Shown piece by piece: positions 5,340 through 53,870 of a stretch of DNA of 64,000 nt (within the stretch, counting starts at the first letter, position 1; each line of letters starts with the position of its first letter). The position numbers and the translations under genes were made by a program. Source of the DNA: Lachnospira multipara LB2003 (GTDB lineage: Bacteria > Bacillota > Clostridia > Lachnospirales > Lachnospiraceae); the NCBI RefSeq assembly GCF_000702205.1, contig NZ_JNKW01000001.1:186001-250000 (forward strand). The letters run 5' to 3'. Under the pieces are notes generated by a model. The model made no database searches. It saw only the letters and a program-made list of their open reading frames with translations, and was not told the origin of the DNA.

Positions 5340-6881
5340 ATGAGTAAAAAGCCAGTTTTATTAATGATTTTAGATGGATATGGTTTAAGTGATATTAAAG
5401 AAGGTAATGGTATTGCAGCAGCTAACACACCTGTTATGGATGGTTTAATGAAAAATTATCCTTTCGTTAAGGGTTATGCTTCAGGTCTTGCAGTAGGTCT
5501 TCCTGATGGACAGATGGGTAACTCAGAAGTTGGACATCTTAATATGGGTGCAGGTAGAGTTGTTTACCAGGAATTAACTAGAATTACAAAGTCAATTGAA
5601 GATGGTGATTTCTTTACAAATGAAGCTTTACTTGACGCTATTAAGAATTGTAAAGAGAATAATTCAGATTTACATTTATATGGTTTATTATCTGATGGTG
5701 GTGTTCATAGTCACATTACACATCTTTTTGCATTACTTGAACTTGCAAAGAAGAATGGTTTAACTAATGTATATGTTCATGGTTTCATGGATGGACGTGA
5801 TACACCTACAGATGGTGGTAAGGGCTATATTAAGGCTGTTTGCGATAAGATGGCAGAACTTGGTGTTGGTAAGTTCGCTACATTAAATGGTCGTTATTAT
5901 GTAATGGATAGAGATAATAGATGGGACAGAGTTGAAAGCTCTTATAAGGCATTAGTTAACGGTGAAGGCATTAAGGCTACAGATGTTAATGAAGCTATTG
6001 CTAAGTCTTATGCTGATGGTAAGACAGATGAATTTGTTGAACCAACTGTTATTGTTAAGGAAGATGGTAGTCCAGTTGCTACAATTAAGGACGGAGATTC
6101 AATTATCTGCTTCAACTTTAGACCAGATAGAGCAAGAGAAATTACAAGATGCTTCTGTGATGATGAATTCACAGGATTTGAAAGAGGAGCAAGAAAGAAT
6201 GTTAAATATGTTTGCTTCACAGATTATGATGTAACAATTCCTAACAAGGAAGTTGCATTTAAGAAGGAATCATATGCTAATACATTTGGTGAATTCTTAG
6301 CTAAGAATGGTAAGACACAGGCTAGAATCGCTGAAACAGAAAAGTATGCTCACGTAACATTCTTCTTTAATGGTGGTATTGAAGAACCAAACGAAGGTGA
6401 AGACAGAATTCTTGTTAAGTCACCTAAGGTTGCTACATATGATTTACAGCCAGAAATGAGTGCTCCAGAAGTATGCGAGAAGTTAGTTGCTGCTATTAAG
6501 TCTGATAAATATGATGTAATTATTGCTAACTTTGCTAACCCAGATATGGTTGGTCATACTGGTGTTATGGATGCAGTTGTAAAGGCAATTGAGACAGTAG
6601 ATAACTGCGTAGGACAGGTAATTGATGCTATTAAGGAAGTTGATGGCGTTGCATTTATTTGCGCTGATCACGGTAATGCTGAAAAGCTTATTGATGAAAA
6701 GGGTGAAGTATTTACAGCTCATACAACAAACCCAGTTCCATTTATCTTAGTTAACTATGATGAGAATTATACATTAGCTGAAAATGGTAAGCTTTCAGAT
6801 ATCATTCCTACACTTATTGAAATCATGGGAATGGAACAGCCTGCAGAAATGACAGGTCATTCATTACTTGTTAGAAAGTAA
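5340..6881 (+). CDS. gpmI: 2,3-bisphosphoglycerate-independent phosphoglycerate mutase
   Basis: Converts 3-phosphoglycerate to 2-phosphoglycerate using a metal-dependent phosphoserine mechanism of the alkaline phosphatase superfamily. Visible are LMILDGYG near the N-terminus (metal aspartate), GQMGNSEVGHLNMGAGR with the catalytic serine, GFMDGRDT, and the C-terminal metal ligands in DHGNAE and HTTNPVPF. A TTG at 5313 is in frame, but the ATG at 5340 has GGAGG (5327-5331) at proper distance and gives 513 aa, the family length. No enolase gene follows here. Confidence 0.97.
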   Translation: MSKKPVLLMILDGYGLSDIKEGNGIAAANTPVMDGLMKNYPFVKGYASGLAVGLPDGQMGNSEVGHLNMGAGRVVYQELTRITKSIEDGDFFTNEALLDAIKNCKENNSDLHLYGLLSDGGVHSHITHLFALLELAKKNGLTNVYVHGFMDGRDTPTDGGKGYIKAVCDKMAELGVGKFATLNGRYYVMDRDNRWDRVESSYKALVNGEGIKATDVNEAIAKSYADGKTDEFVEPTVIVKEDGSPVATIKDGDSIICFNFRPDRAREITRCFCDDEFTGFERGARKNVKYVCFTDYDVTIPNKEVAFKKESYANTFGEFLAKNGKTQARIAETEKYAHVTFFFNGGIEEPNEGEDRILVKSPKVATYDLQPEMSAPEVCEKLVAAIKSDKYDVIIANFANPDMVGHTGVMDAVVKAIETVDNCVGQVIDAIKEVDGVAFICADHGNAEKLIDEKGEVFTAHTTNPVPFILVNYDENYTLAENGKLSDIIPTLIEIMGMEQPAEMTGHSLLVRK

Positions 6882-10103: not shown

Positions 10104-10442
10104 GGGGCTGTAAAGGTTTCGACGGGGATCTTGAAGCCGGTGAAGCTATTCGCAGGGTGATGCGTTAAATTCCAAATTAAATATAAACGCTGAAGAAAAT
10201 TTAGCATACGCTGCTTAATAGCAGCAGTCTGACCTAGTGAACCTACGCATTAGGACCCAGGCTTCGAAACAGTAGGAAACGACCTATCCAAAGCTTTGAG
10301 GATGGTGGGCGTATTATGAAGCTACTAAGATATAGGGCGCGTTAACTTGCCATATATTGAGGGAATGAAAGTATAGTTAACTATAATAGTAGAAGAACGG
10401 TGAATGGGTTTTCGGACAGGGGTTCGACTCCCCTCAGTTCCA
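10104..10442 (+). ncRNA. ssrA: tmRNA (transfer-messenger RNA)
   Basis: Rescues stalled ribosomes. The 5' end GGGGCTG pairs with CAGTTCC at the 3' end to form the acceptor stem, and the T-arm GGTTCGACTCCCC is intact. The conserved GGTTTCGACGGGGA stretch follows the 5' end. The tag reading frame ends GCT GAA GAA AAT TTA GCA TAC GCT GCT TAA TAG (10189-10221), encoding ...AEENLAYAA; the resume codon is upstream, probably near 10174, but cannot be fixed by eye. CCA is not encoded after the discriminator A. Own promoter, own terminator, next to smpB. Confidence 0.96.
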
Positions 10443-10444
10443 TG

Positions 10445-10475
10445 CAGACGGTTAATATTAACCGTCTGTTTTTTT
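10445..10475 (+). terminator. Terminator of ssrA
   Basis: CAGACGGTTAA (10445-10455) pairs with TTAACCGTCTG (10458-10468), then a run of seven or more T. Confidence 0.9.
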
Positions 10476-19872: not shown

Positions 19873-20092
19873 CTTGAACCTTGCGATTATAGTGCCTTCG
19901 GCCACGCAAGGCTACATTGCAATTACAGAGTAATTGCAACAATACTTGAACCTTGCGATTATAGTGCCTTCGGCCACGCAAGGCTACATTGCAATTGCTT
20001 CGCAAATGCAACAAGACTAGAACCTCATGCATTTAAGTGCGCTTTGCGCTGGCATGAGGCTACATTGCAACTGCACAGCAGTTGCAACAATA
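19873..20092 (-). repeat. Family A structured repeats, three tandem units
   Basis: Units 19873-19944, 19945-20016 (72 bp each) and 20017-20092 (76 bp). Each has a GC-rich hairpin (CCTTGCG/CGCAAGG in units 1-2, CCTCATGC/GCATGAGG in unit 3) with a smaller hairpin inside, then GCTACA, then a second hairpin (TTGCAATTAC/GTAATTGCAA in unit 1, TTGCAACTGC/GCAGTTGCAA in unit 3). The stems change on both sides together, so the fold is conserved rather than the sequence. Orientation is opposite to the copies at 23.7 kb. No protein is likely; the reverse-frame ORF here follows the repeat. Confidence 0.85.
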
Positions 20093-23700: not shown

Positions 23701-23925
23701 TTGTTGCAACTGCTATGCAGTTGCAATGTAGCCCCGAGCCCGCGCGGAGCGCACAAAATAAGAAGGCTTCAAGAACTGTTGCAACCGCAATGCAGTTGCA
23801 ATGTAGCCCCGAGCCCGCGCAGAGCGCACAAAATGCGAGGGGTTCAAGACCTGTTGCAACCGCAATGCGGTTGCAATGTAGCCCCGAGCCCGCGCGGTGC
23901 GCATAAAATGCGAGGGGTTCAAGAC
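23701..23925 (+). repeat. Family A structured repeats, three tandem 75-bp units
   Basis: The same repeat as at 19.9 kb but inverted and more GC-rich; equivalent stem positions recur at 23704, 23779 and 23854, an exact 75-bp period. Hairpin 1 is TTGCAACTGC/GCAGTTGCAA in unit 1 and TTGCAACCGC/GCGGTTGCAA in unit 3, a compensated change, with unit 2 an intermediate mismatch. TGTAGC then joins hairpin 2 (CCCC...GGGG with an inner GCGC/GCGC arm), ending GGTTC. Reading frames across it on both strands are repeat artefacts. Confidence 0.88.
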
Positions 23926-23928
23926 CTG

Positions 23929-24000
23929 TTACGCTGGTTTTACTGCATCTACTGGCGTAAGTTTCCTGTATTTGTTGTAGCTGCAATGCAGTTGCAACAA
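23929..24000 (+). repeat. Partial family A remnant
   Basis: After the third unit comes TTACGC (23929-23934) pairing with GCGTAA, and then a final arm at about 23971-24000 in which CTGC and GCAG pair around AAT with outer TTGTTG/CAACAA. It looks like decayed hairpin-1 copies without hairpin 2. Confidence 0.5.
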
Positions 24001-26555: not shown

Positions 26556-26823
26556 AGTTAAGAGAGCGAAAATCTCAAAGAAACATCGGAATTTATTAAT
26601 ATTCCTGGGGCGTTCGCAAACCTACTTATTTTGATCCTACATTTATTCGACGGGATTCCTATATCGCTATGCTGATGTCGAGCCTCCATAGAGTGGATGG
26701 CAGATGTATAGTTGCGGTTACCCACCTGGCTTTGCTAGGAGTCGAAACCGTAGGCGGACGGCGTTCTGGGAGGTTGTTTAAGAATTCAAAGACCTTCATA
26801 CGAAAGTATGAGGGTCTTTTTTT
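26556..26823 (+). ncRNA. Free-standing structured ncRNA, class not assigned
   Basis: About 265 nt between a consensus promoter and a strong terminator with no credible protein. Long-range pairings stack co-linearly: AACCT with AGGTT, CCTAC with GTAGG, TTCGAC with GTCGAA; inside them are a CTATA/TATAG arm containing GCCTCCA/TGGATGGC, and a CCTGGC/GCTAGG arm. The 5' part has its own GCGAA/TTCGC stem. It is more GC-rich than its flanks, as stable RNAs are. The elongated fold suggests 6S RNA or another housekeeping RNA (for example the raiA class), but the branched tip does not fit 6S well. A 61-codon frame inside is rejected. Confidence 0.65.
26789..26823 (+). terminator. Terminator of the ncRNA
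   Basis: AAGACCTTCATAC (26789-26801), GAAA loop, GTATGAGGGTCTT (26806-26818), then a T-run. Confidence 0.92.
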
Positions 26824-45097: not shown

Positions 45098-46009
45098 ATG
45101 AGTAGGGGAATTAAGTTAGGAATTAAGTTAGTATGGTTACTTTTGCTATGCGTTTTAGTTTTTTCGGGTTGTGGTAAAATTTTTACAAAAAAATCCGATA
45201 AGAAAGCTAACACACAAGTAAAAGCGGTGGAAGAAACTGTAGAGGCAGATGAAACTGTAGTATCAGATGAAACTGTAGAAGCAGATGAAACTGTAGAAGC
45301 AGATGAAATTGAGTATGCAGAAAAAACTGTAGAGACAGATGAAACTGATGAGGCAAGCCTTACACAGACAAGTAAAGATAACTCTTATCTTGTGGTAATT
45401 GATGCAGGACATCAAACCCAGGGGGATTCTAGTCAAGAGCCAGTAGGTCCAGGAGCTGGCACTACAAAAGCTAAGGTTACTGGCGGAACTAGGGGAGTTT
45501 ATACAGGCCTTTATGAATATGAACTTAATCTATCAGTGGCGCTAAAGCTTCAAGCCGAGCTAGAATCTAGGGGCTATAAGGTTATAATGGTTAGAACGAC
45601 TAATGAGGTGAATATTAGTAATAGTGAGCGTGCAGCTATAGCAAATGAAGCGAATGCCGATGCTTTTATTAGAATTCATGCAAATGGTTCTTCTGATTCT
45701 AGCGTAAGTGGTGCTATGACAATTTGCCAGACAAGTTCTAATCCATATAATGCTTATCTTTATTCCCAAAGCAAGTCACTTTCAACAAATGTGTTAGAGG
45801 AATTGGTTGCTGCTACTGGATGTAGAAAAGAATATGTTTGGGAAACAGATACCATGAGCGGAATAAACTGGTGTCAAGTTCCTGTAACTATAGTTGAGAT
45901 GGGCTATATGACTAATCAGGCAGAGGATAGTTTAATGTCCACAGACAGTTATCAGAATAAAATAGTGGATGGTATCGCAAATGGAATAGATGCTTATTTT
46001 GGAATGTAA
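45098..46009 (+). CDS. N-acetylmuramoyl-L-alanine amidase, lipoprotein
   Basis: Cell-wall hydrolase that cleaves the amide bond between MurNAc and the peptide. The 303 aa have a lipoprotein signal with lipobox FSGC (cysteine about residue 25), an acidic spacer of seven hexapeptide repeats (ETVEAD type, about residues 46-87), and a C-terminal zinc Amidase_3 domain (about 100-303) with [27 protein letters not shown] and IVEMGYMTN supplying the metal ligands and catalytic glutamate. The spacer probably spans the wall from the membrane anchor. Confidence 0.93.
45233..45358 (+). repeat. 18-bp tandem repeats within the amidase gene
   Basis: Seven consecutive 18-bp units starting at 45233, consensus GAAACTGTAGAAGCAGAT, the third and fourth identical and the last three diverged. 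They keep the frame, so slippage would lengthen or shorten the spacer by six residues at a time. Confidence 0.85.
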
Positions 46010-53598: not shown

Positions 53599-53600
53599 TG

Positions 53601-53830
53601 TAATAACTAGCGAAGCTAGTTATTATGTAGCGTCAGCCCTTCGCGAAGCGAATCTAATGGCTGATGTTCCCTCTGTCGTAACTTACAAAGTAAGTTACGA
53701 CCTAGCGTCATTTGTCGTAAGCACGAAGTGGTTGCGACTTTGTGCGAAGCACATCTAATGGCTGATGTTCCCCCACTTGTAATAACTAGCGAAACTAGTT
53801 ATTATGTAGCGTCGCGCTGCGCGATGTTAA
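53601..53830 (+). repeat. Family A-type structured repeats, three to four units, variant stems
   Basis: Same architecture as at 19.9 and 23.7 kb with different stem sequences. Unit 1: TAATAACTAGC/GCTAGTTATTA (53601-53625), TGTAGC, then TCAGCC/GGCTGA (53633-53638/53659-53664) with inner TTCGC/GCGAA, TCTAAT and GTTCC. Unit 2: GTCGTAACTTAC/GTAAGTTACGAC (53675-53701); a further GTCGTAA/TTGCGAC arm; TGTGC/GCACA then TCTAAT and GGCTGATGTTCC again. The last unit repeats the first stem, TGTAGC and a GC-rich arm. It separates thiI from the HPr-like gene. Confidence 0.82.
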
Positions 53831-53831
53831 T

Positions 53832-53870
53832 AAAAAAAGCCCCTGCCTTTTTAAGGGCTGGGGCTTTAAT
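53832..53870 (-). terminator. Terminator of the HPr-like gene
   Basis: On the minus strand AAAGCCCC and GGGGCTTT (53860-53867 / 53836-53843) pair and are followed by a T-run. Confidence 0.8.

Follow-up and report, generated by a model that had tools for sequence, protein, structure and literature searches.

The DNA at positions 19873-20092 of the window, by which we mean the whole 64,000-nucleotide stretch of the Lachnospira multipara LB2003 genome analysed here, raises the question of whether the hairpins repeated there are kept by selection on a fold, and in which nucleic acid. The original prediction described three adjacent double-hairpin units whose stems change on both arms together, and read this as selection at the level of RNA or of a cruciform. 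The three units are present, head to tail on the minus strand (19873-20089), and the quoted stems match letter for letter; on that strand each unit reads TGT, hairpin A, TGTAG, hairpin B, TTC and a few further bases. Units 1 and 2 are copies of one another at 90% identity, which leaves unit 3 as the only source of an independent stem; hairpin A in unit 2 has a single mismatch. The proposed relation to repeats at 23.7 and 53.6 kb holds as well (Table 1): there are three units at 23702-23923, and the array at 53599-53832 keeps the layout of 19873-20089 in unrelated stem letters, with three matches, of which one is damaged and one truncated, and an additional hairpin A. In general form the unit spans 65-80 bases and runs TGT, hairpin A (a palindrome of about 10 bp), (T)GTAG, hairpin B, TTC. 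When the three units are folded as DNA, their z values are, in order, -5.4, -3.1 and -4.0, and 0, 1 and 0 of 200 dinucleotide shuffles, respectively, fold equally well.

The array at 19873-20089 sits between two ORFs that resemble, by eye, a GPH-type sugar transporter and an alpha-galactosidase. Neither L. multipara ATCC 19207 nor L. pectinoschiza has a unit ahead of the alpha-galactosidase ORF; in both, this gap (L111:3893-4000 and its counterpart in L113) holds another hairpin-like stretch, TAGAAAATG...CATTTTCTA. Elsewhere in the window, positions 10104-10445 and 26599-26776 match the Rfam models of tmRNA and 6S RNA, and an 18-base tandem repeat at 45233-45347 (6.4 copies, with a 54-base higher order) is possibly coding. 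A descriptor scan of the window for hairpin, GTAG, hairpin proved too loose, returning the known units amid many chance matches.

Table 1. Two-hairpin units and partial units in the window (A and B, hairpin arms given 5'/3').
Feature	Position	Strand	Evidence
Two-hairpin unit 1; A: TTGCAATTAC/GTAATTGCAA; TGTAG; B: CCTTGCG/CGCAAGG	19873..19941	-	sequence and model match
Two-hairpin unit 2; 90% identity to unit 1, hairpin A with one mismatch	19945..20013	-	sequence and model match
Two-hairpin unit 3; A: TTGCAACTGC/GCAGTTGCAA; B: CCTCATGC/GCATGAGG	20017..20089	-	sequence and model match
Unit, 3' arm of hairpin B damaged	23702..23773	+	sequence and model match
Unit, tandem G.A/A.G mismatch in hairpin B	23777..23848	+	mismatch seen in sequence
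Unit, tandem G.A/A.G mismatch in hairpin B	23852..23923	+	mismatch seen in sequence
Solo hairpin A (TTGT...ACAA)	23972..24000	.	seen in sequence; weak model match, E 0.04
Differently spelled unit; A: TAATAACTAGC/GCTAGTTATTA; B: CGTCAGCC/GGCTGATG; directly 3' of a TAA stop codon	53599..53672	+	sequence and model match
Hairpin A, CCTAG linker and first bases of a truncated hairpin B	53674..53709	+	seen in sequence
Damaged unit	53713..53773	+	model match
Truncated unit, short hairpin B	53778..53832	+	model match

To follow the units beyond the window, we used three covariance models, the first of them (R1) built from 22 copies; the TATCAATTTAAT copies were excluded from the seed because the first MAFFT alignment misplaced them. 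R1 finds 49 matches in the window's genome with E no higher than 2e-5, rising to 55 when values up to 0.1 are allowed. With the second model, R2, matches at E up to 0.01 occur in 4 of 22 genomes of the genus Lachnospira (55, 36, 25 and 1), with 36 in L. multipara ATCC 19207 and 25 in L. pectinoschiza M83; for the window's genome the models indicate about 50 copies. Within the family, taken from the genus to be Lachnospiraceae, the third model, R3, finds matches in 17 of 397 genomes (16 genera) when E is 0.01 or below, and in 14 of 397 at 0.001 or below. Four of these genomes (G555, G574, G601, G614) have 10-12 matches each, with 12 candidates scored per genome; the matches in G100, G635 and G650 are weak (E 0.001-0.003), and that in G650 is, by eye, a plain long palindrome. 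Among relatives, R1 matches at least 3 of 98 genomes, and in the order R2 matches at least 4 of 392, whereas a class-wide draw of 391 genomes, searched with R3 under strict filters and with few candidates scored, gave a match in the window's genome alone. The family, order, class and relative counts are all lower bounds, since the filters were strict above 40 genomes and few candidates were scored.

The copies are mostly intergenic, with 75 of 83 arrays outside any called ORF. At the Rfam gathering score nothing matches over a unit, either in the window or at 11 loci of other genera, and under a lax threshold the sole hits are to two microRNA models (E 3.9 and 4.8). The plasmid and phage collections, queried with the window array, gave no match, and among the matches listed in a search of the open-access literature there were no descriptions of REP-like repeats for Lachnospiraceae.

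We then compared stem changes across copies in two alignments: A6, of 100 distinct rows, and A7, of 30 distinct rows from 22 loci in 16 genomes (15 of other genera, one Lachnospira). In A6, 92.9% of 2144 cells are paired and 581 two-sided changes stand against 17 one-sided ones, compared with an average of 140.6 two-sided cells in shuffles. Sliding one arm by 1-3 columns drops pairing from 92.9% to 26-43%. In A7, which includes the G650 match (two rows) and shares loci L213 and L214 with the alignment of R3, 96.7% of cells are paired, with 215 two-sided and 6 one-sided changes and 56.7 two-sided cells in shuffles. Both alignments were fitted to the covariance model, which favours structure, and the rows in each are related, so that the shuffles overstate significance. 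The GTAG tag is exact in 73/100 rows of A6 and 14/30 of A7, and TTC is present in 96/100 rows of A6. Judged from these many aligned copies, upkeep of the fold is strongly supported, and the original reading is supported in part.

Part of what looked compensatory, in contrast, is block replacement. Over most of the stretches compared, the genomes of L. multipara ATCC 19207 and L. pectinoschiza share 96-98% identity, with lower values in some, and at their orthologous sites we found hairpin A swapped at L222/L200, a whole unit swapped at L225/L206, a solo hairpin A facing A-B-A (L195/L269, L199/L273, L234/L266), and different unit numbers within an array (L221/L201, L227/L207, L231/L203). Since whole hairpins or units differ between such sites, the cells in our covariation counts are not independent events; together with duplication, these swaps mean that part of the covariation is the copying of whole hairpins. 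Neighbouring hairpin A arms are identical in 15 of 33 cases within arrays and in 3.5% between arrays, which fits array growth by duplication, and neighbours within 200 bp share orientation in all 36 cases (0 opposite).

Units also differ in presence between the sister genomes, and near-identical ones recur at unrelated loci. A single unit is present in one sister genome and absent from the other at L224/L205, L231/L264 and L202/L275, while the unit at L199:13535 is nearly unchanged in L274. Among 107 of 118 matches compared, 17 pairs of units are at least 92% identical between unlike flanks (seven clusters by eye); two of these join orthologous arrays (L222/L200, L212:7239/L218) and the others lie at unrelated loci. 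Outside the paired units identity drops quickly, by about four bases upstream of TGT and immediately downstream of TTC. The compared sites show no exact scar-free junction of the IS200/IS605 type, but 5-6-base fillers or a lost TAG instead, and because empty sites retain such short fillers, some absences are probably deletion scars. The orthologous sites of L220 and L193 were not located, and alignments at L194, L196, L197, L208, L215, L217, L218, L223, L229, L232 and L235 were too diverged to place a junction.

Two further repeats came to light alongside the units. A larger composite palindromic element, running from about CAAGACTCGC to TTTAACTCAGTCGG with a two-hairpin unit at its centre, is itself dispersed (L228 at about 5953-6138, and L193, L196, L208, L216, L226, L229 and L252); at L228/L209 it is flanked on both sides by AGTTTGT. 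Another repeated hairpin, CTCAGTCGG...CCGACTGAG, with TTTAA / TTAAA outside, occurs by eye in several intergenic regions, near units at L211, L215, L228, L237 and L252.

If the fold is kept, is it kept in RNA or in DNA? Folded RNAs tolerate G-U steps, and a DNA hairpin does so less. Among standard pairs, G-U makes up 35/1991 in A6 (1.8%), 16 of the 35 at a single position of hairpin B, and 12/614 in A7. For comparison, 15 tRNAs, kept from 21 structures at the analysed loci and many of them from other Firmicutes, have 22/313 (7.0%), about four times more than the units; Fisher P is 1.6e-6 for A6 and 2.8e-4 for A7, with cells that are not independent.

We also asked where the arrays lie relative to genes, using 74 of the 83 (omitting 8 that fall within a called ORF and 1 that lacks a downstream gene), with mechanical ORF calls and with two sister genomes that share loci. 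The upstream gene is in sense for 44 of 74 arrays, and 21 of these 44 start within -7..6 nt of its stop codon, where 3.6 are expected if starts were even; the three genomes contribute 8/18, 6/11 and 7/15. The 3' end lies beside an antisense stop codon in 6/31 (1.8 expected), and array ends near start codons number 1/30 and 0/43. At the A7 loci the same stop-codon test gives 5/13 against 3.26 expected, which is not significant (L290 and the overlapping L294 were dropped). The 5' flank has a weak preference of about T-W-A-H, with A or T at -3: among 67 first-unit flanks, T is at -4 in 37, A at -2 in 39 and G at -3 in none, once composite-element copies, repeated flanks and units not starting with TGT had been removed. 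TAA stop codons can supply this preferred flank.

The clustering of sense arrays after stop codons could also mean an RNA role. Protection of the mRNA end, ribosome stalling and read-through attenuation have been proposed for enterobacterial REPs, and Liang and co-workers are said to have found that such REPs near stop codons affect translation. The units could likewise be structured elements of 3' untranslated regions, transcribed directly downstream of the stop codon, that shield the end of the mRNA, hold up ribosomes as they terminate or dampen read-through; the strong covariation fits such a role, as do the 21 starts at stop codons and the arrays that lie, by eye, between a stop codon and a terminator-like hairpin (e.g., L231:6001, L198). 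We nevertheless judge it unlikely: besides the scarcity of G-U pairs and the turnover between sister genomes, 7 arrays outside ORFs are flanked by divergent genes, and 26 of the 65 that lie between co-directional genes run antisense, too weak a departure from even odds (P 0.14) to show a sense bias. The choice between RNA and cruciform had been left open; scarce G-U pairs, both orientations to genes and the copying of units favour a DNA hairpin, most likely a single-stranded one.

A DNA hairpin might be kept without any selection. In quasipalindrome correction, template switching at the fork would copy one arm onto the other and so produce paired changes neutrally. Hairpin A, nearly perfect and with 58 different 10-base arms among 116 copies, is what such copying would leave, and L195 vs L269 could be read, by eye, as one instance of it. 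Hairpin B, however, carries imperfections that the process would erase: a tandem G.A/A.G mismatch that sits at the same position in 32/100 rows of A6, where the other rows are nearly always Watson-Crick, and, by eye, bulges and a lopsided inner loop. Moreover, the order of A then B with a GTAG-like linker recurs in other genera, and the process leaves dispersal unexplained. We therefore regard neutral upkeep as improbable, more so than the RNA role.

By analogy with integron attC sites, the units might instead be recombinase sites read as folded single strands, with the arrays as cassette-like chains. A fold kept with free letters, chains of units and block exchange at one site would all suit this, but the units are too short to hold a gene and a search with PF01797 linked no recombinase to them, and we give the idea very little weight. 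As the copies number about fifty, dispersed and mostly single, we also set aside type III toxin-antitoxin and CRISPR-like repeats.

Minimal IS200/IS605-derived elements such as the PATE-like MITEs have two hairpins and a short 5' flank preference. The units have two hairpins and a weak T-W-A-H flank; the compared sites hold fillers rather than an exact empty site, and no parent IS with like ends was found. By eye, two IS605-type elements of L. multipara bear no likeness to the units at their upstream ends.

The nearest described kind, judged from the text of Di Nocera et al. 2013 (PMC3733652), is the GTAG-tagged REP repeat, which has in common with the units GTAG at the foot of a stem-loop, an imperfect palindrome, many intergenic copies and their position. 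In that text, figures and supplements aside, there is no mention of Firmicutes, Clostridi, Lachnospira, Eubacterium or Roseburia. Unlike these REPs, the units add a second, near-perfect palindrome, form no inverted pairs (BIME/REPIN) among neighbours within 200 bp, rarely contain the G-T pairs that the paper calls 'often observed', and were not found flanking a RAYT/Y1 gene. Because the units do not share the dimers, the frequent G-T pairs or the transposase, and carry a second palindrome, we do not file them as REPs, though in our reading they act in a REP-like way. With the REPtron, as the excerpted parts of PMC8266576 and PMC6006769 describe it, they share a hairpin with a tag at its foot and, with the REPs of E. 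coli, stem irregularity. The MRSC-65-2 motif (PMC11109978, in excerpt) is likewise repeated, covarying and possibly DNA-acting, but consists of a single long stem with UYCCGG.

A search for Y1/HUH transposases (PF01797) gave no match in the window's genome or in L. pectinoschiza (G007), and three matches in L. multipara ATCC 19207. Of 16 carriers checked (G100, G635 and G650 left out), 7 have a match and 9 do not. Carriers are no richer in Y1 than their relatives, of which 58 of 98 have it (Fisher P 0.28; five carriers among the 98), and 38 Y1 loci with about 1.5 kb of flank, 11 of them from carriers, contain no unit. Absence of Y1 is not proof, because draft assemblies can lose transposase genes. 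According to PMC3733652, REPs of the CGTC type have no dedicated transposase.

We therefore favour, with moderate confidence, reading the repeats as a REP-like family of mobile DNA, non-autonomous and recognised as single-stranded hairpins; this reading goes beyond the original prediction, which did not propose mobility. The strand carrying GTAG would be recognised while single-stranded, for example on the lagging-strand template, and by its shape: two hairpins, with hairpin B bearing a tag of the GTAG type at its foot and, in many copies, a mismatch or bulge at a set place in its stem. We infer this mode of recognition because work on TnpAREP, in the excerpted text of PMC8266576, shows that the tag and, in E. 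coli, an irregularity of the stem matter. The mover would be a single-strand-specific enzyme, perhaps a trans-acting HUH/Y1 transposase or an as yet unrecognised recombinase, and arrays would gain and lose units when hairpin A repeats recombine or slip. The hairpins would matter as DNA and not as RNA.

More tentatively, and at somewhat less than even chances in our estimation, the units may represent a Lachnospiraceae-wide class of two-hairpin mobile repeats, recognised as single strands and without a Y1 of their own, which a so far unknown recombinase or borrowed machinery moves and for which stop codons are landing sites. If the reading as mobile DNA holds, REP-like elements can spread without a resident RAYT, here in a large gut family, which bears on how REPs move, including those of the CGTC type. 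Stems spelled freely within a fixed fold would then amount to a mutagenesis experiment, done by nature, on the code by which single-stranded DNA is recognised. The repeats are also variable markers of strains, often placed at the ends of genes.
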